The notes under the pieces are model-generated. The model did no database searches. It worked only from the letters and a program-made list of their open reading frames with translations, and was not told the DNA's origin. A stretch of DNA of 64,000 bases, taken from assembly GCA_017656235.1 (NCBI GenBank), contig JACDOF010000008.1:1-64000 (forward strand). Reading direction: 5' to 3'. The position numbers and the translations under genes were made by a program. Source of the DNA: Brevibacillus sp. (GTDB lineage: Bacteria; Bacillota; Bacilli; Brevibacillales; Brevibacillaceae). Of the stretch, positions 11,999 to 24,590 are shown one piece after another. How positions within the stretch are numbered: the first letter of the stretch is position 1; the number at the start of each line of letters is the position of its first letter.

Positions 11999-12805
11999 AT
12001 GCTGGAATCGAAGCGAAGAGCAATCATTTTCTTTACTCTGTCTTTTTTACTAGCTCTGCTGGCCGGCTTCCTGTTTTTGAAAAAGATTCAGGAGATCAAC
12101 GCGGAATTGGGGGAAATGGTGGAGATTTACGTGGCCGGAACCGACATCGCATCCCGTGCGCTGATCCAGCCCGACCAGGTCACCACCAGGCAAATCCCCA
12201 AAAAATACGCAGATGACTCCTATATCACGGATCGGCGCACCCTGCAAAACAAGGTAACCGTCATTCCTTTGTCTGAGGGGGATATCATTACCAAAAACAT
12301 GATTAAACCGGCATCCATTGTCCGGGACCAAAACAACCGTCTGGTCACCGTGTACGCATCAGGCAAGATCATCTTTGACCAGCAGTTGGAAGCCTTGGAC
12401 CGTGTGGACGTCATCGTGTCGCACAACGTAGACGGCAAACCTGTCACCGAGGTGTTTATGAAAGATGTGCCCGTCGCGATGGTGGCCAAGGCAGACGACC
12501 AGTTTAAAGGCGTGGCGCTGGAGCTGCCGTTTGAGCAGGTGCCGGCCTTTATCCACCAGCAGCACTACGCCGACATTATCCGGATTCTGAAGGCCAATGT
12601 CGGAAAAGGGGAACTGGGAATCGCTGAACCTTTTCAACAGCCGGCGTCGGAACAGCCGACCGCGGAACAAACCGGCGAAACCAAGACAGAAGCCGGGAGT
12701 CAACCGGTAACCCAAGAGGAACAGACGAACGGAGCGGTCACCGTGCCGCTTTCAGGCCAGCACGCGCCACCCAATGCAGACACGAAACCGGAGGGGCAGC
12801 GATGA
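11999..12805 (+). CDS. cpaB: CpaB/RcpC-like pilus assembly protein (SAF domain)
   Basis: A 268-residue protein beginning with a signal anchor (about residues 9-28). It continues with a SAF domain (about 40-105) recognisable by AGTDIASRALIQPDQVTTRQIPKKY and LSEGDIITKNMI. This is the CpaB/RcpC family, which helps assemble or modify Tad/Flp pili at the cell envelope. The C-terminal 70 residues are Gln/Glu/Pro/Thr-rich and probably disordered. ATG 11999 is chosen because GAGAGGGA lies 9 bases upstream; longer in-frame extensions run through the terminator. The stop overlaps the tadZ start by four bases. Confidence 0.85.
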   Translation: MLESKRRAIIFFTLSFLLALLAGFLFLKKIQEINAELGEMVEIYVAGTDIASRALIQPDQVTTRQIPKKYADDSYITDRRTLQNKVTVIPLSEGDIITKNMIKPASIVRDQNNRLVTVYASGKIIFDQQLEALDRVDVIVSHNVDGKPVTEVFMKDVPVAMVAKADDQFKGVALELPFEQVPAFIHQQHYADIIRILKANVGKGELGIAEPFQQPASEQPTAEQTGETKTEAGSQPVTQEEQTNGAVTVPLSGQHAPPNADTKPEGQR

Positions 12806-13959
12806 ATACAGGCATCAAACTTCTTGTCGTGGCTGATTACGATTCGGTAAAAGATCTGCTTAAGGAAGCACTGGCCCACTACGAGCAGGTGGAGTACACC
12901 ACACCCCGCGAGGTGAAGAAAGAGATCGACCGGATCGGGCCGCAGGTCGTGCTGCTCGTTCAGCCGGAGGATGGTTCCGGTGTCGAACTGGTGCAGTACA
13001 TACAGAGTGAGCTGCCGGAAGGGATTATCATCTTTCTTACCGAGAAGCAGGATTTTGTCTTGTTGCGAGATATCGTCCGCGCAGGTGCGGTTGAATACAT
13101 CCTGATGCCGGATGAACTGTCCCTGCTGACGGATCGCCTGGAAAAAATCTCTGAACTGACCCAGCAGCAGCAGAGAAAAAGGGGAGCATCCGTTTCGGGA
13201 CAGGCGTTTGTCCGGGGGCGGGGAAAAGTGTATGCCTTTTACAGCGGCAAAGGGGGAAGCGGCCGCACCCAGTTGGCCACCGGCTTCGCCCAGTCCCTCA
13301 AACTGGAGTCGACGGCCCGCGTGCTGCTGATCGACCTGAATCTGCAGTACGGAGGGGTGGAAACGTTCTTGTCGCTGGACAGCAGCCGTACGTTGGCCGA
13401 TCTGATCCCGGTCATGCACGAAATGAACGAGAACCACATCCGCAACGTGTCGCAGCGGGAGGCCCACTCCAAGCTGGAGGTACTGCTCAGTCCCCGCGAC
13501 GCGGAGACGGCAGAGAACGTGTCCGAAGAGTTTGTCAGCCGATTGATCCGGGCCAGCCGCCGCAGCTACGACTTTGTGATCATTGATCTGCCGGCCAACA
13601 TGAACGAACTGACCTATACGGCGCTGGAAGAGTCAGACATGATCTACTATGTGATGAATCTGGACACTCCTTCGATCCAAATCTTTCGCTTGGTTGAGGA
13701 TTTGTTCAGACGGCTTCGGATCGATACGGCCGGCAGGATGGAATTGGTGGTAAATCAGGTGGGCAGGGATAACGAACTGACCATCTCCGACCTGAAGGGA
13801 CTGATCAACGCCCCGATTGCCGCGGAGATTCGCCGGGATCACCGCGGCGTTCAGGCAGCGGTGAATCAGGGGCTGCCGCTGCAAAAAGAGGCAAACGAGA
13901 AGAAGCTGGTTCCGGCAGCGAAAGACATTCGCAAATGGGTGCTGAAGAAGCTGTCGTAG
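12802..13959 (+). CDS. tadZ: TadZ/CpaE-like pilus localisation ATPase
   Basis: A 385-residue protein with an N-terminal response-regulator-like domain (about 5-115, lacking a clear phospho-Asp signature) joined to a ParA/MinD-type ATPase domain (about 140-380). TadZ places the Tad machine at a chosen site on the membrane. The deviant Walker A reads SGKGGSGRTQLA: the signature Lys150 is present but the P-loop Lys is Arg155. Walker B is DFVIIDLPA. Its ATG overlaps the cpaB stop. The Arg change suggests weak or absent ATP hydrolysis. Confidence 0.87.
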   Translation: MNTGIKLLVVADYDSVKDLLKEALAHYEQVEYTTPREVKKEIDRIGPQVVLLVQPEDGSGVELVQYIQSELPEGIIIFLTEKQDFVLLRDIVRAGAVEYILMPDELSLLTDRLEKISELTQQQQRKRGASVSGQAFVRGRGKVYAFYSGKGGSGRTQLATGFAQSLKLESTARVLLIDLNLQYGGVETFLSLDSSRTLADLIPVMHEMNENHIRNVSQREAHSKLEVLLSPRDAETAENVSEEFVSRLIRASRRSYDFVIIDLPANMNELTYTALEESDMIYYVMNLDTPSIQIFRLVEDLFRRLRIDTAGRMELVVNQVGRDNELTISDLKGLINAPIAAEIRRDHRGVQAAVNQGLPLQKEANEKKLVPAAKDIRKWVLKKLS

Positions 13960-13973
13960 GAGGGGAAAAGAGG

Positions 13974-15350
13974 ATGGCGTTATTTCAACGAAAGCGAGAC
14001 AAACCATTAGAAAGCGAGCAAGCCCCACGTACCCGGGCGGCGTCTTCCTACCACAATCCCTATCTCGATGAACTGGCCGATCACTACAAGGCCCGGCTGC
14101 TGCGGGAAACCAACCTGGAGCGGTTGACCAGCCTCTCAGCCGGAGAAATGCGGCTGGCAATCGAACGGCTGGTTTCGCAGTACATGTCTGAGGAGAAGGT
14201 GGTGATCCCCAGGAATGAGAAAGAACTGCTGTTGACCCGGCTGATCAACGAGTCGGTTGGCTTTGGGCCGCTGGAACCGCTGCTCACCGACCCGGAGATT
14301 ACGGAAATCTCCATCAACGGACATCAGGAAGTGTACATCGAGAAAAACGGCCGCCTCGAACGGACCGATCTGAAGTTCCGCGATGAGGAACACCTGCGGC
14401 ACATCGTGGACCGGATTGTCGCGCCGCTTGGCCGGCGCATCGACGAAAGCTCCCCGATGGTGGACGCCCGCTTAAAAGACGGCAGCCGTGTCAACGTGGT
14501 GATCCCGCCGATCAGCCTCAATGGAACCCTGATCTCGATCCGCAAGTTTCGCAAAGACCCGTACTCCATGGAGGACCTGGTAGGGTTCAATTCCTTTAGC
14601 GAAGCGATGTCCCGCTTCCTGCAGGCGATCGTCGAAGCCAAGCTGAACGTGCTGATCTCCGGCGGAACCGGCAGCGGGAAGACGACCCTGCTCAATGCCG
14701 TCGCCCGGGCGATTCCGTCTTACGAGCGGGTGATCACGATCGAGGACTCGGCCGAGCTGAAACTGGATCGCCCCAACTGCGTCGGCATGGAAGCCCGCCC
14801 GCCCAACATGGAGGGCAAAGGGGAGATCACCATCCGTCAGTTGGTGAAGAACTCGCTTCGGATGCGGCCCGACCGGATCATCGTCGGGGAGGTGCGCGGC
14901 GCGGAAGCATTCGACATGCTGCAGGCGATGAACACCGGTCACGAAGGTTCGCTGACGACCGTGCACGCCAACTCACCGCAGGACGCTATTAACCGGCTGG
15001 AGGGGATGGTCATCATGGCCGGGTTGGACCTGCCCTCCTCTGTCATACGCGAATACATCGTCAGCGCGCTCGACTTCATCGTCCAGGTAATGCGCCTCTC
15101 CGACGGGACGAGGAAAATCGTCTCGATCTCGGAAGTGGTCACCAGGCCGAACAAACGAGTGGAGGTAAACGAGATCTTCCGCTTCCATCGGATCGGGATG
15201 GGCAAAAAAGGCGAGGTCATCGGCTGCTTTACGCCGACCGGGGTGATCCCGCACTGCCTGGAACGGCTCAGGGTGTTCGGGATCGAGCTTGACGAATCGA
15301 TCTTTCAAGTGGAAGAGGTGAAAATCCGTGACCATCTCTATCCTGTTTAG
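13974..15350 (+). CDS. tadA: Tad pilus secretion ATPase (CpaF/TadA)
   Basis: A 458-residue hexameric type II/IV secretion ATPase that powers pilus extension (and, in Caulobacter CpaF, retraction). The N-terminal helical region (1-95) is followed by the ATPase core: Walker [10 protein letters not shown] (about residue 227), the Asp box TIEDSAEL, Walker [11 protein letters not shown], and the His box [15 protein letters not shown]. Length and motifs are standard for CpaF. ATG 13974 follows GGAGGGG. The end overlaps the tadB start by 23 bases, showing one operon. Confidence 0.95.
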
Positions 15351-16254
15351 TCTCTCGGTACTGCTCGGCATCTGGGGCCTGTACGACTATCTCGGCTACC
15401 GGGCGAAGAAGAACGAGTGGAAAAAGAAAGCGGAAGAGTGGTATGACGTCAAGTCATCCCGGAAGAGCTTCATCATCGTCTGGGGCGACAGGTTTGACCA
15501 AACCCCTCATGCCAAAGAGGTGCAGAAGAAGCTGAAAAAAGCCAATCTGCCGCTCGCTCCTTCCGAGTTTTACGGGATTCTGCTGGTCGGAGCGATGGCT
15601 ATCGCCTTTTTCCTCAACACCGTGGTGGGCATCACCTTTCCCTACAACATCCTGGGCGGCATTGCCATCATGTACGTCATCCAAAGCGTGCTGTTTTTCG
15701 TCCGGCGCAACAAGTACCAGGAGCGGCTCAACGACCAGTTGCCTGAAATCTGCCGTCTTTTGTCCAACTCGCTTCGCGCCGGCATGACCCTGACACAAGG
15801 GATTGCGCTGGTGGCCAGGGAGCTGAGCTATCCGGCCGGTGACGAATTCAGCCGGATGTCCCGCGAACTGCAGCTTGGCGTCAGTTTTGAGCGAGCCTTG
15901 TCCGACATGGAGAAGCGCATCCCGTCCCGCGACTTCCGCATCTTCGCCGCCACGCTCCTGATCCAGCGGCGGGCCGGCGGCAACCTCAGCCAGGTTCTGC
16001 AGGAGATGGCGGAGACGATGGAGGATCGGCGGATCGTCAACCAGGAGATCAAGACGATGACCGCCGAACAGCGCTATGTCTCGATCCTTGTACCGATCAT
16101 GCCGATCGCGCTGGTGCTGATGATGAACACGATGAACAAGGGCTTTATCGATCCGCTGTTTAAAGGTGTGGGACTGATTTTACTGGGACTGTTTACGATC
16201 GGCACGATCCTCTCCTACATCCTGGTCAAGAAAGTAACCAACATAAAGGTGTGA
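15328..16254 (+). CDS. tadB: Tad pilus inner-membrane platform protein TadB
   Basis: A 308-residue polytopic protein with a type II secretion F domain. An N-terminal helix and two central helices (about 85-130) precede the cytoplasmic F domain (about 130-250; PEICRLLSNSLRAGMTLTQGI, ...ERALSDMEKRIPSRDFRIFA), and two C-terminal helices end it. It forms the membrane platform with TadC that couples the ATPase to pilin insertion. The GTG start lies inside the end of tadA, preceded by AGAGGTG. The next gene begins 4 bases after its stop. Confidence 0.92.
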   Translation: MTISILFSLSVLLGIWGLYDYLGYRAKKNEWKKKAEEWYDVKSSRKSFIIVWGDRFDQTPHAKEVQKKLKKANLPLAPSEFYGILLVGAMAIAFFLNTVVGITFPYNILGGIAIMYVIQSVLFFVRRNKYQERLNDQLPEICRLLSNSLRAGMTLTQGIALVARELSYPAGDEFSRMSRELQLGVSFERALSDMEKRIPSRDFRIFAATLLIQRRAGGNLSQVLQEMAETMEDRRIVNQEIKTMTAEQRYVSILVPIMPIALVLMMNTMNKGFIDPLFKGVGLILLGLFTIGTILSYILVKKVTNIKV

Positions 16255-16258
16255 AATC

Positions 16259-17194
16259 ATGGATGCTTTCCTTATCACCAGCGTGTTTTTGTTTGTGCTG
16301 TTCTTTGCCATCTTCCTCAAGGAATGGTACCGGTACACGGTTGAGCGGCAAAAGCTGATTCACCATGTTCACGACCTCACCGGCCGCAGAACGTACGATA
16401 TCCGCAAGCCGGAAACCGCTTCACAGCGGATGCTCAAGCGCCTGCTCCGCTACGGAGACGATTACGCCGCATTGGGCCAGCGATTCAACTTTTTCAGTGA
16501 ATCGCACGAGGTAGAAGACTGGCTGCTGAAGGCGGGCCGACCGCTTGACCTGCCCGTCGCCCGCTTTCAGGGAGTAAAGATCGTGCTCACACTGTTTGGC
16601 TTCATTGCCGGGATCTTCTTCTTCCTGCTCGGCTTTCCCCTGTCCCAGTTCGGCTTGGTGGTCTGGCCGTTGCTTGGCTACTTTCTGCCGATCATCTGGA
16701 TCAAGAAAAAGGCGATAGAGCGGCAGAATCAACTGCGCTACGACCTGCCGGAGTTTTTGGACACGGTCAGCGTCACCCTGCAGGCCGGTGTCAGCCTCGA
16801 CCAGTCGCTGCGGGAGGTGATCAAGTATTTCGACGGCCCGATCCGCGAAGAATTCTCCCGCTTCAATCAGGAGCTGGACCTGGGCGTACCGAGGGAAAAG
16901 GCGTATGAGCAGCTGCTGCGGCGCAACGACAACCCGGAGTTTCAAATGTTGATCAAAGCGCTGATTCAAGGGATGAGACTGGGCGTCCCGATTGCCGTCA
17001 CTTTCAAAGCCCAGTCGGAAAACATGCGCCGCATCCGCAAGGAGCTGGTCAAGGAAAAGGCGGCCAAGGCATCGCCGAAGGTTACCCTGATCACCACCTT
17101 CGTGGTCGCCCCGACTGCGATCATGTTGATCGGCGGGCTGATGGTGCTCAACATCCTGGAGAACGTCAGCGTATTTAAAGACCTGTTTCGCTAG
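16259..17194 (+). CDS. tadC: Tad pilus inner-membrane platform protein TadC
   Basis: A 311-residue paralogue of TadB with the same layout. An N-terminal helix and paired hydrophobic segments near 100-150 precede a type II secretion F domain (about 155-275; DLPEFLDTVSVTLQAGVSLDQSLREV), followed by a C-terminal helix. It pairs with TadB in the pilus motor. The ATG follows AAAGGTG, and the gene is spaced 4 bases from tadB. The Flp pilin gene follows after about 115 bases. Confidence 0.92.
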   Translation: MDAFLITSVFLFVLFFAIFLKEWYRYTVERQKLIHHVHDLTGRRTYDIRKPETASQRMLKRLLRYGDDYAALGQRFNFFSESHEVEDWLLKAGRPLDLPVARFQGVKIVLTLFGFIAGIFFFLLGFPLSQFGLVVWPLLGYFLPIIWIKKKAIERQNQLRYDLPEFLDTVSVTLQAGVSLDQSLREVIKYFDGPIREEFSRFNQELDLGVPREKAYEQLLRRNDNPEFQMLIKALIQGMRLGVPIAVTFKAQSENMRRIRKELVKEKAAKASPKVTLITTFVVAPTAIMLIGGLMVLNILENVSVFKDLFR

Positions 17195-17308
17195 AGAGGG
17201 ATTACCCGGTAAGGAGGTGATGGCTGTCCGGAAGTGGGCGAGCGGTTGACGGTTGGCAGCGGTGTCACCAGTTATGAGGGGAAGGTTTATGAAAGGAGAG
17301 GGAAGAGC

Positions 17309-17530
17309 ATGAAAAAATGGGTGCAAAAGGCTTATGTGAAGTGCATGAGTGCGCTGCAAAATCAGAATGGTGCGCAGGCGATTGAGTGGATTGCGCTGGC
17401 GGGCGTGGTGTTGGCGATTTTTAGTGCGATAATAGCTTATTTTCAGGGCAATAGTGAAGCCGACATTACTGATGCAATTGATACCACAATAAGTAATATC
17501 ATTAAGAGCATATCTGGTAAGGAAGAATAA
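17309..17530 (+). CDS. flp: Flp-type pilin (type IVb prepilin)
   Basis: A 73-residue prepilin. A 21-residue basic leader ends in Gly21; the mature part starts AQAIEWIALAGVVLAIF, with the conserved Glu at +5 that guides subunit packing, then an alpha-helical hydrophobic core and a short polar C-terminus. This is the major pilus subunit candidate. ATG 17309 has AAAGGAGAGGG upstream; the in-frame start at 17234 would add an unlikely leader. No prepilin peptidase gene is seen in the window, so processing would need one elsewhere. A strong terminator follows. Confidence 0.87.
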   Translation: MKKWVQKAYVKCMSALQNQNGAQAIEWIALAGVVLAIFSAIIAYFQGNSEADITDAIDTTISNIIKSISGKEE

Positions 17531-17556
17531 TCTTTTGTGTTTTACAGTTTCAGTGT

Positions 17557-17601
17557 ACATGTTGGTGGTGTGATCTTCCCACCACCAACATGTTTCTTTT
17601 T
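17557..17601 (+). terminator. Terminator after the Flp pilin gene
   Basis: A perfect 14-bp stem (17557-17570 with 17580-17593, core CATGTTGGTGGTG / CACCACCAACATG) is followed by TTTCTTTTT. It splits the pilus locus into an assembly-machine operon and a downstream set, and may set a high pilin-to-machine transcript ratio. Confidence 0.88.
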
Positions 17602-17645
17602 AAGCAGCGTGGATCCTGATCATGTCGGAAACGGGGGTAAACAGA

Positions 17646-19079
17646 ATGAAGAAACTGGTCAAAACGATCGCTGTCATTTTTCTTCTCATCACTTTGCAAA
17701 GTGGTTGTTCCGAACAAGACAAGACGAACGAGGAGTCGAAAGAGACAACTGAAACGATAGACAACGAAAAGAAGCAAACTCCCAATCAGGATCAACAAAA
17801 GGAGAAAACAGATCCACAAACTGAACCGACCAGAGAAGAAAAAATAGCCGCACTGCAAGAATTGATTCCAGATGGGATCACAAGCATACCTGAGACAATC
17901 GACGATTTTGCCGCCTTTCCGCCAGGCCGCTTGATCGGGCTTTCATCCAGGGATGACAAACAAGAAATCGTAGAACACTTAGAAAAGTTACCAGACATTG
18001 AAGAGGCAGACGAGGAGATTATCGAGCTGTACTACCTCGCCCTGTTGGGGTTATTTGCCGAGGATTTTCCTGATCCACAAACGCTGATTGAAGAGATCAA
18101 AATGGCCTCCTACGGAGATCCGGAGATGGATGACCCTCGTTTTCAGTTTAAAGAACAGTACAATGTGGAGATCATCCTGGACGCCAGCGGCAGCATGGCG
18201 GAAAAAGTGGGCGGCAAGACGAAGATGGAAGCGGCCAAAGAAGCGATCCAATCGTTCGCTGATGCGTTACCGGAACAAGCCCATGTGGCCCTGCGGGTGT
18301 ATGGACATAAGGGGAGCAGTAAAGAGTCCGACAAAGAACTCTCTTGTGGAAGCAGTGAGTTGGTGTATAACCTGCAACCCTATGACGCAGGAAAGTTGCA
18401 AACTGCCCTGAATCAATTCCAGCCAACCGGATATACGCCGATTGCCCGTTCTTTGCAAGAAGCACAGAAGGATTTGAGCGGACTGTCCGGAGAGAAGAAC
18501 ACCAATATCATCTACCTGGTCAGTGACGGGATCGAGACGTGCGATGGCAACCCGGTAGAGGTTGCGAAACAGCTGGCTGACTCTGACATCACCCCGATTG
18601 TCAATGTGATCGGGTTTGGCGTAGATGGAGAGGGACAACAGCAGTTACAAGCAGTGGCGAAGGCTGCCGGTGGAAGGTATGTGTCCATCACGAATCAAAA
18701 GGAGTTGGAGGAAGAATTTGATCGCTCGGAAGAGATGGCGAAAAAGTGGGAACGGTGGAAAACGCATTCTTCCTTAGATGCTTCTTATACCCACACGAGG
18801 CGAATGATCAGTATCGACAAATTTGTTCTTAGATGGAAAAATATTGCCGGTCATCAACATTCCAGATTATTTTCAGCTATTACGACATTATACGTTAAAG
18901 ATATCGTTGCCGAGAAAACCATCAACGCACTGAAAAAAATGAGTTGGGATCATTATTACTTAGCTGAAAAAAAGGCGGATGAACTAGGGGATTTTTTACA
19001 CTCCCTAAACGACAAAACCTACAAAGAAACAATTGAAGCGATCAAGCAAAAATACAACGAGAATGTCAATTCAGACTGA
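17646..19079 (+). CDS. vWA-domain lipoprotein (first of two paralogues)
   Basis: A 477-residue lipoprotein: signal peptide with lipobox LQSGC, then a long acidic/polar linker (about 25-70) and a conserved region before a von Willebrand A domain (about 175-365). The metal-ion-dependent adhesion site motif DASGSM is intact, and two Cys (in ELSCGSSELV and DGIETCDG) are conserved with its paralogue at 23268. The C-terminal 100 residues are AT-rich in codon use and diverge from the paralogue until the last 25. It is probably a surface adhesin or assembly factor of the pilus locus. ATG 17646 is preceded only by a G run. Confidence 0.82.
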   Translation: MKKLVKTIAVIFLLITLQSGCSEQDKTNEESKETTETIDNEKKQTPNQDQQKEKTDPQTEPTREEKIAALQELIPDGITSIPETIDDFAAFPPGRLIGLSSRDDKQEIVEHLEKLPDIEEADEEIIELYYLALLGLFAEDFPDPQTLIEEIKMASYGDPEMDDPRFQFKEQYNVEIILDASGSMAEKVGGKTKMEAAKEAIQSFADALPEQAHVALRVYGHKGSSKESDKELSCGSSELVYNLQPYDAGKLQTALNQFQPTGYTPIARSLQEAQKDLSGLSGEKNTNIIYLVSDGIETCDGNPVEVAKQLADSDITPIVNVIGFGVDGEGQQQLQAVAKAAGGRYVSITNQKELEEEFDRSEEMAKKWERWKTHSSLDASYTHTRRMISIDKFVLRWKNIAGHQHSRLFSAITTLYVKDIVAEKTINALKKMSWDHYYLAEKKADELGDFLHSLNDKTYKETIEAIKQKYNENVNSD

Positions 19080-19142
19080 ATAGCATGAATCCCTCATGAT
19101 GTTTGCCGAATGGTACTTAAATAACCAAAGGGAGGTTAACTG

Positions 19143-20318
19143 GTGCGAACCTCATTAAGAAGGCCGATATGCGCAGGAACATTTGCCTTTCTGATTATCT
19201 TGATGAACGTTTTTCCTCTTGTTGCGTTCGCAGAAGTGAACCTGGAAGCACCACAGTACCAGGTTCCGGATTTGAAAGCACCAGAGTGGAACGTTCCGGA
19301 GATAAATGGATTGGAATGGGAAACACCTGACTTGCAGGCTCCTGAGTGGGATATTCCAGAGCTAAACGCACCCCAGGCGGATCAGCCTCAGTTACTAGTA
19401 CCAGACTGGGATACGCCGCACTTTGAAACACCAAAGTCGCAACTTCCAGAGCTGCAGGTTCCCCATATACTGCCCCCAAACCTTGAAGCACCTACGTATG
19501 GAGCCGTCCCAAACTCACGAAATCCGGAGCTGAAAATACCGGATAACCAATTCCCGGAGTTGAACGCTCCAGCGTTAGATCACTCATACGATGCGAACAA
19601 AAAAGGGCCAACAACGCTGGACGCGCTAAAAGCGACCGCCGGTATTCTAAACCATACGGTCGCATTTACCGAAACGCTAAGTGCGCCTGACTTTGATCCA
19701 AGTACATTAAAAAATAATTTATTGAACCTGAAAGGCCGCCAGTTTCTGGAGATTTATAAACTGGCCTCAAAAGGAAACGAGCCCTTCGAATTCTCCGCCG
19801 ATCTTGCCGATACAGGGTTGAAAATTTATGACGCATTTGACGCAAGCAGGTATTTTAACAACGCAAGAGACGCTGTTGGTTCGGGTTATCAACGATTTGG
19901 TCAGGGGACAAACAACTTAAAAATCTGGTTTTCGAAAAGTAGCAGCCTCAATCTGGATGTACCCAAGGCGAATCCCTACCTGGGTGCAGTAGGCTTGGGC
20001 TTGTCTGTGTACGAAACGGCTCAACATATAGATGCCTACCACAGCGCAAAAAATGACCAGGAAAAAACAGAGGCAGTCATTAATACGGTCGGCAGCGTAG
20101 GAGATTCGATGACAAACGTAGGAATGATGATTTCCCGGGTTCCGATTCCCGCCGTCCAGGCAGCAGCAGGAGTGCTAATCATAGCCGGTACCGTGTTAAG
20201 TGTGGGCAGTATGGTGGCAAGATGGGCCAATTCGAAGACTGGAAGAAAAGTGATCAAAGGAACCGTGGATACGGTCAAAAAAGGTTTCAGGAAGGTAAAA
20301 TCCTGGTTCGGATTTTAA
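19143..20318 (+). CDS. Secreted protein with ten-residue proline-rich repeats
   Basis: A 391-residue protein of no family known to me. A signal peptide (1-30, cleavage near AFA) is followed by about eleven copies of a ten-residue unit of the form L-x-A-P-x-W-x-x-P-E (residues 34-145). Next comes a helical domain (about 150-330), a hydrophobic stretch (about 335-360, PAVQAAAGVLIIAGTVLSVGSM) and a basic C-terminus (KKGFRKVKSWFGF). The repeats look like an extended proline-rich stalk able to cross the cell wall. GTG 19143 has GGGAGG 7 bases upstream. It lies between the vWA lipoprotein and the pseudopilin genes. Confidence 0.72.
   Translation: MRTSLRRPICAGTFAFLIILMNVFPLVAFAEVNLEAPQYQVPDLKAPEWNVPEINGLEWETPDLQAPEWDIPELNAPQADQPQLLVPDWDTPHFETPKSQLPELQVPHILPPNLEAPTYGAVPNSRNPELKIPDNQFPELNAPALDHSYDANKKGPTTLDALKATAGILNHTVAFTETLSAPDFDPSTLKNNLLNLKGRQFLEIYKLASKGNEPFEFSADLADTGLKIYDAFDASRYFNNARDAVGSGYQRFGQGTNNLKIWFSKSSSLNLDVPKANPYLGAVGLGLSVYETAQHIDAYHSAKNDQEKTEAVINTVGSVGDSMTNVGMMISRVPIPAVQAAAGVLIIAGTVLSVGSMVARWANSKTGRKVIKGTVDTVKKGFRKVKSWFGF
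19242..19578 (+). repeat. In-frame 30-base tandem repeats coding a 10-residue unit
   Basis: Residues 34-145 of the secreted protein repeat with a period of ten: positions 34, 44, 54, 64, 74, 84, 94, 104 and 114 are Leu, Ile or Phe; Pro recurs at +3 and +8; Trp appears at +5 in four units. One unit is stretched to 16 residues (114-129) before the period resumes at 130 and 140. The DNA copies have diverged, so selection acts on the protein pattern. Confidence 0.85.
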
Positions 20319-20342
20319 CGTGCTGCTAATGGAGGATACAAG

Positions 20343-21209
20343 ATGAAAGTGCAAGAAACACCGGAAATTAAGACACAAATAAAAAAGTACAAAAAATGGT
20401 TGGAAAAAGCCGAGTTGTTTCCTTACACGTTTAAGTGGAACGACAAAGAATACTGCTATGTCTTTTACAAACGGGTAGGGGGTAGAGCAGGGATTTTAAT
20501 TCTGGATTTGCACGCTCAGGTGGTATCACGTGAAGAAGCAGAGGTAGTTGCTGTAAAGGTTGGAAACTACAACAGTATTGTGGTAGAGGGGAACCGAAAG
20601 CTAAGCCGTGACAAGAATCGACCGATCTGGCCAATTCAAAACATGATCGCAATTCTTGATCAACTGGAACCTGTTTGTTCGTCTTTCGCTGATTTTCATG
20701 AGATTCAAGACGATTGGCATGGTTTTCGGCAAACCTTGCAAACCATCTTTACCGGTCAACAACGTTTACAGGAAATATACGATGAGATGCAAAAAGTAGA
20801 TGATACCGTGCATGAGAAAAGAAATTATACCTTGATACCGGAAGATGTTGAAGAAATGCGCAAATTAATCAGAGAGTGGCAGCGAATCATGTATACAGAG
20901 GGAAGATTGCAATTGGAGTCCATTCCTGCGGTGAGGCGAATCCAAGCGTTTTTAAAGCAGTACCGCAACCGAGTAAACCTGCAAACAAGGCCCGCTGTAG
21001 AAAAGCTGCTGCATCTCATCAAAAAGTACCTTGATCCTGATTCCTTGAAAATTTTGCATCGTTCATTGAGTGGGTTTGAAAAAGATGAGCATGGCCGTCC
21101 CGTAACCTTTGCGCCGGGCGAACGTGGAATTGAGCAGATGATGGAAATGTACGAACGAAGGTCAAAGTTTGATTTGCAACGGGTGTTTATAGACGGTTTG
21201 AGAAACTAA
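20343..21209 (+). CDS. Hypothetical cytoplasmic protein, 288 aa
   Basis: I do not recognise this family. The product has no signal peptide or membrane helix. The N-terminal part (about 1-95) looks like a small alpha/beta domain (EYCYVFYKRVGGRAGILILDL), followed by a mostly helical, charged region (about 100-288) likely to form coiled coils. ATG 20343 has TGGAGG 9 bases upstream and lies 24 bases after the repeat protein, so the two are probably co-transcribed. It could be a cytoplasmic partner or chaperone of that secreted protein; this is inference from position only. Codon use is AT-richer than the Tad genes upstream. Confidence 0.6.
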   Translation: MKVQETPEIKTQIKKYKKWLEKAELFPYTFKWNDKEYCYVFYKRVGGRAGILILDLHAQVVSREEAEVVAVKVGNYNSIVVEGNRKLSRDKNRPIWPIQNMIAILDQLEPVCSSFADFHEIQDDWHGFRQTLQTIFTGQQRLQEIYDEMQKVDDTVHEKRNYTLIPEDVEEMRKLIREWQRIMYTEGRLQLESIPAVRRIQAFLKQYRNRVNLQTRPAVEKLLHLIKKYLDPDSLKILHRSLSGFEKDEHGRPVTFAPGERGIEQMMEMYERRSKFDLQRVFIDGLRN

Positions 21210-21290
21210 TTATGATTGATGTCAACTTACACCAAGAAACCTACGGATTTTATCAATAGATGATATCACGATTGAAAACAGGTGAGGTTC

Positions 21291-21998
21291 ATGCATCCAT
21301 TCAGAGAAAGCGTACGGTTTTACGCGAGGAACATCGAATATCTGCTGTTGTTGGCTTTTGCCATATGCTTGCCCTTTTCCCTGCTTCACGCCTTTGTTAC
21401 GAATTACGTCTACTTCTGGACGGCTTTCACACAAACAAACGCCTTTGGCGATTTTGTCAATACGTTTTACATGTTGCTGTTTTTCATCGTGGCCCAGCTG
21501 CCGTTTATCCAATATGTGCAGAGTGAAGTCGAGGGAGAAGAAAAAGGAATTCGTAGAGCGTTCCACACATTTTTTGTGCATGGTTTCTCCGTCTTTTTGT
21601 TTGGGGTGCTATATGTGCTTCTGGTACTGGCCGGTTCGCTCCTGTTTATCATTCCTGGTCTGATCGTGCTAACGCTTTTTTTCCTCACCCCCTACATGAT
21701 TGTAATAAGAAACCAGTCTGCGTGGAAAAGCTGGCAGGCAGCTTTTCAACTGGGTAAGCGGTATTTTTTTCCGCTCTCCGGACTCCTGCTGCTGATCAGT
21801 GTAGTAGAATGGCTGATTGGCTTCGCCGGTTTGTTCGGTGTCGCCATGATCACAAGTAATTATGCGGCCTTTCTGTTTAGTCAAATCATGCTGAATCTGA
21901 TCCTCTTTCCGTTTATGGTCGTCTTGATGACGTTTTATGTGCGAAAATGGCGGATTGAATCGTCAGGGGAGAATCGCTCTGAGCTGTTGACAAAGTAA
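21291..21998 (+). CDS. Polytopic membrane protein, 235 aa
   Basis: A multi-spanning protein with about six hydrophobic segments, resembling the YciC/DUF975-like type of small bacterial membrane proteins (segment YVLLVLAGSLLFIIPGLIVLTLFFLTPYMIV with the typical IPG turn). The exact function is unknown. ATG 21291 has AGGTGAGG directly upstream; the in-frame GTG at 21282 is part of that site. It sits between the unknown 288-residue protein and the TadE gene, so it may belong to the pilus export apparatus, but that rests on context. Confidence 0.6.
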   Translation: MHPFRESVRFYARNIEYLLLLAFAICLPFSLLHAFVTNYVYFWTAFTQTNAFGDFVNTFYMLLFFIVAQLPFIQYVQSEVEGEEKGIRRAFHTFFVHGFSVFLFGVLYVLLVLAGSLLFIIPGLIVLTLFFLTPYMIVIRNQSAWKSWQAAFQLGKRYFFPLSGLLLLISVVEWLIGFAGLFGVAMITSNYAAFLFSQIMLNLILFPFMVVLMTFYVRKWRIESSGENRSELLTK

Positions 21999-22028
21999 GA
22001 GGCTATCTCTGTGGGAGATGAATGGGTA

Positions 22029-22451
22029 ATGCTTTCAAAACAGGATTTCTTTAACAGCCAAAAAGGTTCGGTCACCATCGAATTCATCGGCATCCTGCCT
22101 GCAGTTTTCATCGCGATGCTGGTGCTGTGGCAGTTTTTGCTGGGAGTCTATGCGGTGATTGTCACCCAGTCGGCAGCCAATGAGGCAGCGAAGGTGTATG
22201 CGATAACCGGAGACGAGAGTGAGGCAGAGCAGGCAGCGGAGAACATCGTGGAAACCGCAGGCGAAACACTGACCTTTGGACATGTTTCGATCACACATAC
22301 GGCGTCTGACGGGTATTTTACGGTACATGTGGATGTTTCGTTCAACCTTACTTTCCTTCCCGAAATACTTACGAAAAACTTGTTGGACGAAGATGAGAAA
22401 TACCTTGCCATTCCCATCCAGCAAGAGCTGCACAGTCGGATGATTTACTGA
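22029..22451 (+). CDS. tadE: TadE-like pseudopilin
   Basis: A protein of about 140 residues with the TadE pattern: a short basic leader, KGSVTIEFIGILPAVF with Gly before the mature end and Glu at +5, one hydrophobic helix (about 15-45), then an extracytoplasmic part. TadE-type pseudopilins are processed like pilins and are needed for Flp pilus assembly. The start is uncertain: ATG 22029 has GGGAG 12 bases upstream, and GTG 22011 is an alternative in the same frame. The TadG-like gene follows. Confidence 0.78.
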   Translation: MLSKQDFFNSQKGSVTIEFIGILPAVFIAMLVLWQFLLGVYAVIVTQSAANEAAKVYAITGDESEAEQAAENIVETAGETLTFGHVSITHTASDGYFTVHVDVSFNLTFLPEILTKNLLDEDEKYLAIPIQQELHSRMIY

Positions 22452-22509
22452 ATGCTCAACCGACGACATGTACCGTCTGCCCTAGGAACCAAGAAATCAG
22501 GTGATTGGT

Positions 22510-23181
22510 TTGAAAAAGCGTTTGATTGGTCTGTTACGAGAAGAACGTGGGAACATCACGCTTTTTACCCTGACGATTTTCTACTTCATGATTTTCGCGC
22601 TGTTTGTTGCGCTGTTTAATTTTTCAACCGTTTTCGTAGACAAGCAGCAGGCGGCCAACACCGCCCAGCAGGCCAGTCTGGCGGCGACCAAAGCGGTGTA
22701 TGAAGAGATTGAAGAAGCGATTGCAGACTACGATGAATCGATCATGCTGCTGGAAGACCCGGTATTCATTTGGACCTTGATAGGAATAGAGAAAAGCGAC
22801 CTGCGATCTCTCCATCCAGACTGGGCAGAGAGTGAGATTCATTACACAGCCATCGATAACGTGTTATCCACGATGCTGCCCGGCAATCACGAATTACAAG
22901 CATTTATTCACAATGGGTTGCAAGACTCCAGAGGAAAGGTGGAACAGGCTGTGCGAACCATCATTCAGGAGAACGGGGCGGCACAGTCCGGCTCTACCAT
23001 CAAAATGTTTACCAGTGATGATCGCATTGAAGTAAGAACCTCGGTTAAGTATGAGTCGGTCACGTTTGGACAGGATTACATGCCGTACTTTGAAGAACAG
23101 GTGTATCAGACTGCACAAAGCAGGCGATTCGGCTTTTTGGATGCCGTCGGATTCTGGAGCAACGCTGCATTCTCTCCGTAG
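22510..23181 (+). CDS. TadG-like pilus-associated protein
   Basis: A protein of about 223 residues starting with a basic leader and REERGNITLFTLTIFYFMIFALFVALFNFS, the pattern of TadG/TadE-like proteins (the Gly-Asn processing region before a hydrophobic helix). A long helical region follows (FVDKQQAANTAQQASLAATKAVYEE), typical of the TadG N-terminal domain, then an extracellular part. It lacks the C-terminal vWA domain of full TadG; that domain is found in the separate lipoproteins encoded at 17646 and 23268. TTG 22510 follows AGGTGA; GTG 22501 is an alternative start. Confidence 0.72.
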   Translation: MKKRLIGLLREERGNITLFTLTIFYFMIFALFVALFNFSTVFVDKQQAANTAQQASLAATKAVYEEIEEAIADYDESIMLLEDPVFIWTLIGIEKSDLRSLHPDWAESEIHYTAIDNVLSTMLPGNHELQAFIHNGLQDSRGKVEQAVRTIIQENGAAQSGSTIKMFTSDDRIEVRTSVKYESVTFGQDYMPYFEEQVYQTAQSRRFGFLDAVGFWSNAAFSP

Positions 23182-23267
23182 TACGAGATCCCTCCTGATG
23201 CGCATCGACATAAGAACATCCCAGGCATATCCACAGATACATCCATCGTAAGAAGGCGGTGAGGCAG

Positions 23268-24590
23268 ATGAACTGCACACAACGATTGCTGTCATTCCTG
23301 GCGCCCAGCTGCCTGCTTCTGGTCCTGATCAGCGGCTGTTCATCAGGTGCATCTCCGTCAGGTTCCTCTGTTGAGAAACCTCAACTGCCCCAAACGACCC
23401 AGGACTTGATCGCCCGGCAGCCGGGGCCGCTGGCAGGGACGCATTTTTATCTGCCGGACTCCCCCCATAACCAGACGTTTAGACAAGTGCTCGACCAACT
23501 TCCCACCCTGCCGGACGGCCTGGATCCAGAGATGCTGTCAATGTATTGGGTCAAGCTGATCTCGCTGTTTACGGAGGACTATCTCAGTCCGCAGTCGGTG
23601 GTGGATCGCTGGAGAATGGCTTCATTCGGCAGCCCCGACCTGGATGATGCCCGCTTTCACTTCAAGGAGAATTTCAACGTCGAGATCATTCTCGATGCCA
23701 GCGGCAGCATGGCAGGCAAGATCGGAGAAAAAACCAAGATGCAGTTGGCCAAAGAAGCGATTAAAGAGTTTGCCCAATCGCTTCCGGAGGGAGCCAACGT
23801 CTCTCTGCGCGTCTACGGCCACAAGGGCAGCAATGCCGATGAGCACAAAGAACTCTCCTGCAGCAGCAGTGAGTTGGTCTATCCGCTGCAGCCTTACCAT
23901 GCAGAGAAGATCGAGGCGGCCCTGGAGCAGTTTGAGCCGACCGGTTGGACGTCCATTGCCGGCTCCTTGCGGCTGGCCCAATATGACATGGCAGGATTAA
24001 AGGCGGACCAGAATACCAATGTGATCTATCTGGTCAGCGACGGGATTGAGACCTGTGACGGCGATCCGGTCGCTATGGCAAAAGAGCTTTCCCAGTCAGA
24101 GATTATGCCCCTGCTCAATGTGATCGGGTTTGACGTCAATGCCGATGGTCAGAAGCAGCTAAAGGCGATTGCTCAGGCGGCAGAAGGACTGTACGCCAAC
24201 GTGACCAACCAGGAACAGTTCAAGGAAGAGTTGGAGCGGGCCAGGGAGATCGCCGAGAGATGGGAGAGGTGGAAGCAGGACGCCCTCTCGGAAGCGGAGG
24301 CGGTACGCATCGACCGGCGCAAGTGGATCGAGCGGTTCGACAAGGACTGGTATGAGAAAAACTGGCGGGAAAGCCTCAATCTGGGGGCGGCGATTGATTA
24401 TCTGTATGCCACGCGAAAAATCGGCAGCGAGGCAAAGACTTATTTTACCGAACAAAGAGAGGCGCGGGAAGCCTTTGTGACCCGGTCGAAAGAAGAACTG
24501 ATCGATTATTTGCTGAACCTTACGGAGAAGTCCTACGAAGAGATGAAAGCAGAGATTGAGCAGAAGTATCGTGGTACGGTGGGCGAGTGA
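23268..24590 (+). CDS. vWA-domain lipoprotein (second paralogue)
   Basis: A 440-residue lipoprotein with lipobox LISGC, a short linker, a conserved pre-domain (YWVKLISLFTEDYLSPQSVV) and a von Willebrand A domain (about 140-320) with intact DASGSM. It is closely similar to the protein at 17646 from the pre-domain through the vWA domain, including the Cys pair in ELSCSSSELV and DGIETCDGDP. The C-terminal 120 residues are helical and charged. ATG 23268 is preceded by AGGCGGTGAGG. It closes the pilus locus and is convergent with the acetyltransferase gene. It probably acts as an adhesin or pilus-anchoring protein. Confidence 0.82.
   Translation: MNCTQRLLSFLAPSCLLLVLISGCSSGASPSGSSVEKPQLPQTTQDLIARQPGPLAGTHFYLPDSPHNQTFRQVLDQLPTLPDGLDPEMLSMYWVKLISLFTEDYLSPQSVVDRWRMASFGSPDLDDARFHFKENFNVEIILDASGSMAGKIGEKTKMQLAKEAIKEFAQSLPEGANVSLRVYGHKGSNADEHKELSCSSSELVYPLQPYHAEKIEAALEQFEPTGWTSIAGSLRLAQYDMAGLKADQNTNVIYLVSDGIETCDGDPVAMAKELSQSEIMPLLNVIGFDVNADGQKQLKAIAQAAEGLYANVTNQEQFKEELERAREIAERWERWKQDALSEAEAVRIDRRKWIERFDKDWYEKNWRESLNLGAAIDYLYATRKIGSEAKTYFTEQREAREAFVTRSKEELIDYLLNLTEKSYEEMKAEIEQKYRGTVGE

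Follow-up and report, generated by a model that had tools for sequence, protein, structure and literature searches.

We examined a Tad/Flp pilus locus of Brevibacillus sp. and, in particular, five genes in it that stand beside the Tad core. The locus lies at positions 11999 to 24590 of the window, the whole stretch of 64,000 nucleotides that was analyzed (G000:C8:1-64000, from a genome of 3.6 Mb). Thirteen genes run on the + strand (Table 1), with start codons chosen among the in-frame possibilities. The initial annotation had described a Tad core accompanied by two vWA lipoproteins (vWA1 and vWA2), a repeat protein (rep), a 288-residue protein (orf288), and a polytopic membrane protein (mem); all of these were present, on one strand and in the order first described.

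Table 1. Genes and domains of the Tad locus. Family scores (bits) are given vs their cut-offs.
Feature	Position	Strand	Basis
cpaB/rcpC-like, SAF domain	11999-12805	+	Pfam ChapFlgA 31.8 vs 23.8, SAF 23.2 vs 21; NCBIfam pilus_cpaB 49.7, under its cut-off of 71
tadZ/cpaE-like ATPase	12802-13959	+	CpaE/MinD-type NCBIfam matches, all under their cut-offs
tadA/cpaF ATPase	13974-15350	+	PF00437 215.9 vs 24.9
tadB platform protein	15328-16254	+	Place in tad order and conservation
tadC platform protein	16259-17194	+	Place in tad order and conservation
flp major prepilin, NGAQAIEW motif	17309-17530	+	Sequence; homologues at the same place in family loci
vWA lipoprotein 1 (vWA1), complete MIDAS	17646-19079	+	PF13519 48.8 vs 27
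rep: signal peptide, Pro-rich decapeptide repeat (about 31-148), C-terminal pore-former-like domain (about 148-390)	19143-20318	+	
rep C-terminal domain, first row of profile A5	19584-20312	+	PDB matches of A5
orf288, cytosolic, helical bundle; candidate rep chaperone or immunity protein	20343-21209	+	
mem, polytopic membrane protein, candidate membrane-side immunity protein	21282-21998	+	
tadE minor pilin	22011-22451	+	PF07811 30.3 vs 22.9
TadG-like minor pilin, no vWA	22501-23181	+	PF13400 33.3 vs 22.3
vWA lipoprotein 2 (vWA2), complete MIDAS	23259-24590	+	PF13519 45.5 vs 27

The signal peptide of rep was recognized by eye. Its ten-residue repeat, noted in the initial annotation, was confirmed by a shuffle test (identity at lag 10 of 0.287, equalled by 0 of 2000 shuffles), and a five-residue beat (0.239) was also found. 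A profile built from 25 rep C-terminal domains (A5) was then compared with 177,635 PDB sequences. Three matches were obtained at an E value of ≤1, namely, pyocin S5 (0.0042), colicin Ia (0.044), and colicin Ib (0.078), and the alignment spans the helices before the hydrophobic hairpin of the pore region of these bacteriocins and extends into the hairpin. We take the matched stretches of all three to be their pore-forming regions. The C-terminal domain of rep is likely a pore-former by this comparison. The likeness to colicins and pyocins is a weak profile similarity over these helices and the hairpin, and the N-terminal part of rep is different from theirs. Pfam scans of the rep, orf288, and mem families gave no convincing domain.

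In a simple hydropathy scan, five hydrophobic segments were seen in mem and none in orf288, in agreement with the polytopic and cytoplasmic locations first assigned to them. The structure model of orf288 was confident (predicted local distance difference test [pLDDT] score of 93.1). It gave no Foldseek match at an E value of ≤0.001, and its best VIA-align Z score of 8.7 (root mean square deviation of 3.9, 104 aligned) was within the chance range for helical bundles; assignment to a fold family was therefore dropped. A scan of genome contigs with only orf288 as the query found no relative, and relatives came from the genome search described below; a plasmid search with the orf288 of locus L145 gave no match. 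For mem, a weak similarity to UPF0259 was seen in 12 of the 15 members scanned, and the mem profile had no PDB matches. Neither orf288 nor mem matched an Imm family in the family scans.

The two vWA lipoproteins carry a lipobox Cys and the residues D187, S189, S191, T272, and D302 (numbered in the frame of the 485-residue vWA1), all invariant in 37 aligned family vWA proteins picked from a longer list. We take these five residues to be the metal-ion-dependent adhesion site (MIDAS) motif. The lipoproteins may be surface or adhesion parts. The copy number of vWA1 in relatives ranges from 1 to 4 (3 in G037 and 4 in G003). Relatives of the vWA lipoproteins were also seen in L110, L112, L115, L118, L120, L124, L125, and L126, solitary genes inspected by their neighborhoods alone, with no tad genes in the fetched stretch. 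Because such relatives occur without tad genes there, the vWA family has roles beyond Tad.

The assignment of the locus to the Tad system was based on family models for TadA, TadE, and the TadG-like protein and on place and conservation for TadB, TadC, and Flp, the last of which had no pilin match in the Pfam scan. TadA, TadB, TadC, Flp, TadE-type minor pilins, and TadZ lie together in one locus, which corresponds to the minimal gene set of a monoderm Tad/Flp (type IVc) system given in an excerpt of PMC6916266. Two prepilin peptidase genes (PF01478, 68.6 and 65.9 vs 26.5) are located on other contigs of the genome. The TadG-like protein (226 residues) has the Tad domain only, and no vWA was detected in it by Pfam. 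It thus differs from a classical TadG, with its TadE/G-like anchor fused to vWA, and the vWA domains are on separate lipoproteins, as first proposed. Promoter-like sites in the region numbered 7, vs 9.7 in shuffles, and terminator-like sites numbered 20, vs 16.1; because these counts are near those of the shuffles, operon structure was judged by strand and spacing only.

Next, the conservation of the locus was examined within the Brevibacillus family. TadA at ≥81% identity over its length was found in 23 of the 39 family genomes, with both vWA genes beside it in all 23. Of the extra genes, vWA, rep, and mem were found in 23/23 family loci with a full-length tadA, and orf288 was not constant (18/23). 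Gene order was conserved, vWA1, rep, and orf288 varied in copy number, and the mem of L096 was split into two reading frames. One further locus, L080 (G011:C1:1486000-1500000), is a remnant with a shortened tadA followed by tadE, tadG, and a shortened vWA2. Immediately upstream of it, an orf288 gene is found on the other strand. The locus can be lost.

The fastest-diverging genes of the locus were rep and orf288, with identities to the window of 32% over 21 family loci and 31% over 16 loci, respectively (values leave out the sister locus L088). The corresponding values were 82% for TadA (79 to 82% for TadA/B/C/Z), 68% for vWA2, 67% for cpaB, 54% for vWA1, and 48 to 50% for flp, TadE/G, and mem (48% for mem). 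When divergence was compared pairwise given TadA, the partial correlation was 0.73 for rep-orf288, 0.66 for orf288-mem, 0.57 for rep-mem, and 0.27 for rep-TadZ, in a set of 29 of 44 single-copy loci (TadA <97% identical), some of them from the named set described below.

We then surveyed 398 genomes of the class. TadA (E ≤ 1e-100) was found in 140 of them, vWA (profile A2, E ≤ 1e-30) in 102, and orf288 and the C-terminal domain of rep (profiles A6 and A5, both at E ≤ 1e-8) in 55 and 53, respectively. Loci were sampled in three groups and annotated with iterated profiles: 29 nonfamily loci with TadA at an E value of ≤6.4e-174 (close loci, 52 with the family), the next 18 down to 4.8e-150 plus L108, which was picked by its vWA match rather than by TadA (intermediate loci), and 47 of lower TadA (distant loci). 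The absence of a gene says little in L132, L134, L137 (8.9 kb), L142, and L147, which are short stretches. The 29 nonfamily close loci contained vWA in 27 cases, mem in 22, and rep in 18. Among all 52 close loci, tadZ was kept in 52, vWA in 50, mem in 45, rep in 41, and orf288 in 36. The 19 intermediate loci had vWA in 6, rep in 2, and orf288 and mem in 1 each, and the 47 distant ones had vWA in 1 (19 bits), mem in 2, orf288 in 1, and no rep. A further set of named loci was picked by vWA (the best 72 of >556, overlapping with the other genomes surveyed). Among these 72, tad genes were present in 55 (mem in 52, rep in 39, and orf288 in 38 of the 55), and the 17 without tad genes had mem in 3, rep in 2, and orf288 in 2. 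The extra genes are therefore not absent beside tad in relatives, close or more distant, and the proposal of a single conserved composite system stood up, with the order kept in the family.

Two of the extra genes behave as a pair. Of 75 rep matches in the 398 genomes, 65 had orf288 within 1.8 kb. Pairs were duplicated, with three in L145 and two rep and three orf288 genes in G037, and spare orf288 genes were found in L127 and L129. By comparison, mem followed the pore-type proteins as a class: it was present in 45/45 of the close loci that carry rep or a pore-like protein, against 0/7 of those that carry neither (L119, L121, L132, L135, L137, L138, and L140, of which L137 is cut off by the end of its contig). 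In the best 72 of >556 named loci, which overlap with the other genomes, the counts were 52/54 and 0/1, and the two loci where mem was missed, L269 and L270, end at contig edges. This co-occurrence would be expected of a protein that gives immunity to pore-type toxins, and equally of a joint part of the machine. From these patterns, we infer that mem provides membrane-side protection and that orf288 is a partner of this rep type. Two other observations concern small genes and membrane proteins of this kind. L145:17889-19015 holds two small genes, perhaps spare immunity genes, whose relatives in L136 follow the EndoU-like gene; no toxin gene was seen next to the L145 pair. L161 has two pore-like secreted proteins with five related membrane proteins of about 200 residues around them, followed by mem.

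The frequency of vWA and mem in the close loci and the gene order kept in the family would also be expected if, as the initial annotation suggested, the extra genes were a structural reworking of the tip or anchor of the Tad pilus to suit a cell with one membrane and a thick wall. Here rep would be a stalk that spans the wall and is held in the membrane by a hydrophobic anchor, with orf288 and mem as its assembly partners and vWA as the tip adhesin. In line with this proposal, the TadG orthologue CpaL, modelled at the pilus tip, includes vWA (PMC12607857, in excerpt). The locus resembles TadG/CpaL in having vWA with the pilus genes and differs in that lipoproteins, and not the TadG-like protein, carry the vWA domains.

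The sister loci point elsewhere. A SFPEAKPFPEAK-type repeat is common to rep, a lipase-like protein, and an EndoU-like protein of L141; a PTLNPPELNPP repeat is common to rep, Ntox44, and lipase-like proteins of L146; and a PEIHPPEIHPPE repeat is common to rep and the Ntox44 protein of L131. Five same-locus pairs from three loci had repeat similarity scores of 87 to 213, and their mean was reached in 0 of 5000 random draws; 569 between-locus pairs had a mean of 33 (standard deviation, 18.5; highest, 179). A high score alone is no proof, because one between-locus pair reached 179. This test used rep proteins of >290 residues with the C-terminal domain after residue 80, without those of L130 and L131 (read by eye), and, on the other side, unlabelled proteins of >240 residues from cluster 0, minus those of L143, L154, and L158. 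Cluster 0, built from the close and intermediate loci only, comprises putative toxins headed by the repeat or by a prepilin, and rep or another of its members was found in 50/52 close loci and 0 of the 47 distant ones. Several C-terminal domains scored over their Pfam cut-offs: Ntox44 in L131 (56.7) and L146 (55.7 vs 24), a MafB19 deaminase in L130 (27.3 vs 27), Cytotoxic in L138 (22.4 vs 22), pre-toxin PT-TG in L135 and L136 (about 25 vs 23.5), and the lipase-like Mbeg1 in L132, L140, L141, and L146 (22.9 to 31.3 vs 21.1). EndoU stayed under its cut-off (18.9 and 20.9 vs 25.3), and a 493-residue protein of L131 and a 554-residue protein of L141 had no Pfam match. An Imm1 gene (26.0 vs 22.4) begins 13 bases behind the deaminase gene of L130, and six of the seven genes of a family of about 340 residues lie directly behind a lipase-like gene. 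A shared head, exchangeable toxin C termini, and Imm neighbors are the marks of a polymorphic toxin system. A shared N-terminal module with differing C-terminal toxins was found in sister loci such as L130, L131, L141, L144, and L146, and the locus in the window has one C-terminal type.

Some of these proteins are tied to the pilus by their own sequence. A Flp-type prepilin head was found on eight toxin-like proteins in six loci, and the repeat head and the prepilin head are each found on lipase-like and EndoU-like parts. The L136 protein (Flp-prepilin head) and the L141 protein (repeat head) align over 302 C-terminal residues at 61% identity, and their first 150 residues have no convincing similarity. 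In addition, TadE-type pilins were fused to Peptidase_M23 in L119 (117.8 vs 28.7; TadE 22.8, just under 22.9) and to a 3D domain in L139 (75.1 vs 23.8; TadE 32.9) and L149 (73.4; TadE 25.3). These three were scanned by Pfam out of a cluster of 19 related proteins from 15 loci; by similarity, L123, L133, L143, and others also have TadE-type pilins fused to wall-cutting domains. Prepilin-headed toxins and TadE fusions with wall cutters tie the islands to pilus assembly.

In the light of these results, a rebuilt tip or anchor is unlikely overall and probably wrong for rep, orf288, and mem. The N-terminal repeat module of rep is shared, locus by locus, with proteins bearing Ntox44, deaminase, and lipase-like domains, in one case with an Imm1 neighbor. 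Furthermore, rep and orf288 are paired, duplicated together, and diverge fastest, and mem tracks the pore-type proteins and not the other toxins, both being missing from 7/52 close Tad loci. Finally, 15/55 genomes with orf288 and 10/53 with rep have no copy within 25 kb of a listed TadA, partly through contig breaks.

The distance to tadA also bears on whether the pilus is involved at all. The 25-kb counts used the upper part of the TadA matches, a few lower rows, and the G011 remnant, and genomes counted as being without TadA can have a distant one, as do G123, G153, and G349. Within this distance were 51/75 rep and 60/101 orf288 matches. The other 24 and 41 matches would fit a hot spot at which toxin/immunity genes settled near tad since both serve surface functions, with a different export route and the pilus irrelevant. 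We regard this as distinctly unlikely given the Flp-type heads described above and the lack of rep in the 47 distant Tad loci sampled. In yet another explanation, the pore-type protein is a translocon that opens the target membrane for optional enzymatic toxins, with mem and orf288 guarding the producer. Pore-type proteins are indeed present in 45/52 close loci, with enzymatic toxins as optional extras. However, many loci, including all 23 of the family, have the pore-type protein alone, so it must be useful alone, and a pore-type protein is missing from L121, L132, L135, L138, and L140, which carry putative toxins of other kinds. This explanation appears distinctly unlikely to us.

We consider it moderately probable that the locus is a Tad-linked polymorphic toxin/immunity island, represented in the window by one pore-former cassette. 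In such an island, rep would be exported via its signal peptide, its Pro-rich repeats would serve as a trafficking or tethering module, and its C-terminal domain would insert into the membrane of a neighboring cell, like a colicin-type pore-former. The polytopic mem would shield the membrane of the producer from pore-type toxins in general, and the cytosolic orf288 would act on this rep type as an immunity protein or chaperone. The two vWA/MIDAS lipoproteins would be retained at the surface of the producer, with the partner cell, the pilus, or the toxin as their ligand, and the pilus would bring cells together and perhaps carry the toxin. The gene content suggests that Tad pili with toxin genes arm cells against rival bacteria. 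A broader form of this idea is that Bacilli deliver through their Tad pili a new class of polymorphic toxins headed by a secreted Pro-rich decapeptide repeat or a Flp prepilin, in which some toxins are pilus subunits, TadE tips with M23 or 3D domains open the wall, vWA lipoproteins recognize the partner cell, and the window holds a minimal version with a single pore-former. We put this forward tentatively, at somewhat less than an even chance.

Several points weigh against the toxin/immunity reading. Its support is genomic throughout, and it is from the genes that we infer the pore activity, the identity of the immunity gene, the role of vWA, and toxin delivery by the pilus. The three bacteriocins matched by A5 are mutually related, in effect one event, and a weak one (best E value of 0.0042). 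Pfam Colicin (PF01024) had 0 matches at an E value of ≤10 in the genome, a further difference from the colicins. In PDB, the profile A8, made from the pore-like proteins of sister loci, had two avidins as its only matches (E values of 0.06 and 0.08), and its profile-profile match with A5 covers 25 columns only. Helical profiles can match by chance, because the helical orf288 profile A6 matched mostly designed helical proteins in PDB, from an E value of 1.8e-4. The AlphaFold model of rep was poor (pLDDT, 41.5), too poor for a structure search, which was dropped. In the Pfam scan, the window's own locus had no toxin domain. There is a single type of rep C terminus throughout the Brevibacillus family; a C terminus varying inside the family was ruled out because this part aligns over 22 proteins (A4; mean column identity, 46%). 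Five of the 23 family loci keep rep and mem without orf288, and the presence of a pore-type protein with mem in 45/52 close loci also fits a machine part. The permutation test of the correlations was passed by the rep-TadZ control as well, so that only their relative sizes count. Lastly, the cassette search was confined to genomes of the class.

Known systems offer partial parallels. The Kil system of Myxococcus xanthus ties a Tad machine to the killing of neighboring bacteria, with minor-pilin tips that vary (excerpts of PMC12075869 and PMC8460266). It differs in belonging to a diderm predator with no toxin named; in the 2021 paper, its toxin "remains to be discovered" (PMC8460266, in excerpt). 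Among the papers searched, this was the one to mention both polymorphic toxins and the Tad pilus. Here, the putative toxin/immunity genes lie inside a Bacilli tad locus, and killing is predicted from gene content. The LXG type VIIb toxin pairs TspA/TsaI and TelE/TipE are membrane-active Firmicute toxins with protective neighbors. According to excerpts of PMC7456083 and PMC10434224, TspA was modelled on colicin Ia and polytopic TsaI protects, and for TelE the soluble TipE protects and a six-pass neighbor does not. By comparison of descriptions only, the heads here differ (signal peptide plus Pro-rich repeats, or Flp prepilin), and the machine is Tad and not the type VIIb secretion system. Polymorphic toxin systems as surveyed by Zhang et al. 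in 2012 (PMC3482391, in excerpt) share the common N-terminal trafficking module, the exchangeable C-terminal toxins, and, for the L130 deaminase, the Imm neighbor. The first 300,000 of the 354,187 characters of that paper contain no "pilin," "prepilin," "TadE," or "type IV pil," and the four matches to "Tad" concern deaminases. Bacillus tad operons are listed in a 2011 survey of type IV pili in Gram-positive bacteria (PMC3244431), with no mention of such genes in the excerpt used. Among the matches listed for titles and abstract openings on type IV pilus, prepilin, TadE, Flp, and immunity, none dealt with islands of toxin genes in the tad loci of Bacilli; this scope excludes preprints and journals under subscription.

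The putative toxin and immunity genes described here lie inside tad loci of cultured Bacilli. Carriers in the best 72 of >556 named loci include Brevibacillus, Bacillus methanolicus, Lentibacillus, Planococcus, and others, and such culturable carriers make toxin delivery by Tad machines directly testable. If correct, the toxin/immunity reading would account for a set of surface proteins of Bacilli that are so far without a name.

Other Tad loci were also seen. Within the genus to which the window belongs, a second, diverged locus with a TadA of 60 to 61% identity is present in L077 (G000:C21:25632-26873), L078 (G035), and L079 (G036); none of the extra genes (vWA, rep, orf288, mem) was detected in these three, and the L077 contig ends after tadE. 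In L078, a 576-residue protein of no known kind lies between tadE and tadG. Among the intermediate Tad loci, secreted proteins with hydrophobic middles in L117, L155, and L156, and also in L154 and L158, had no Pfam toxin domain. L155, L156, and L160 belong to another Tad type and encode a large secreted protein (570 to 616 residues) with a repeat and a long hydrophobic middle, together with a lipoprotein-like protein (462 to 497 residues) that has, by eye, repeated surface-layer-like segments.

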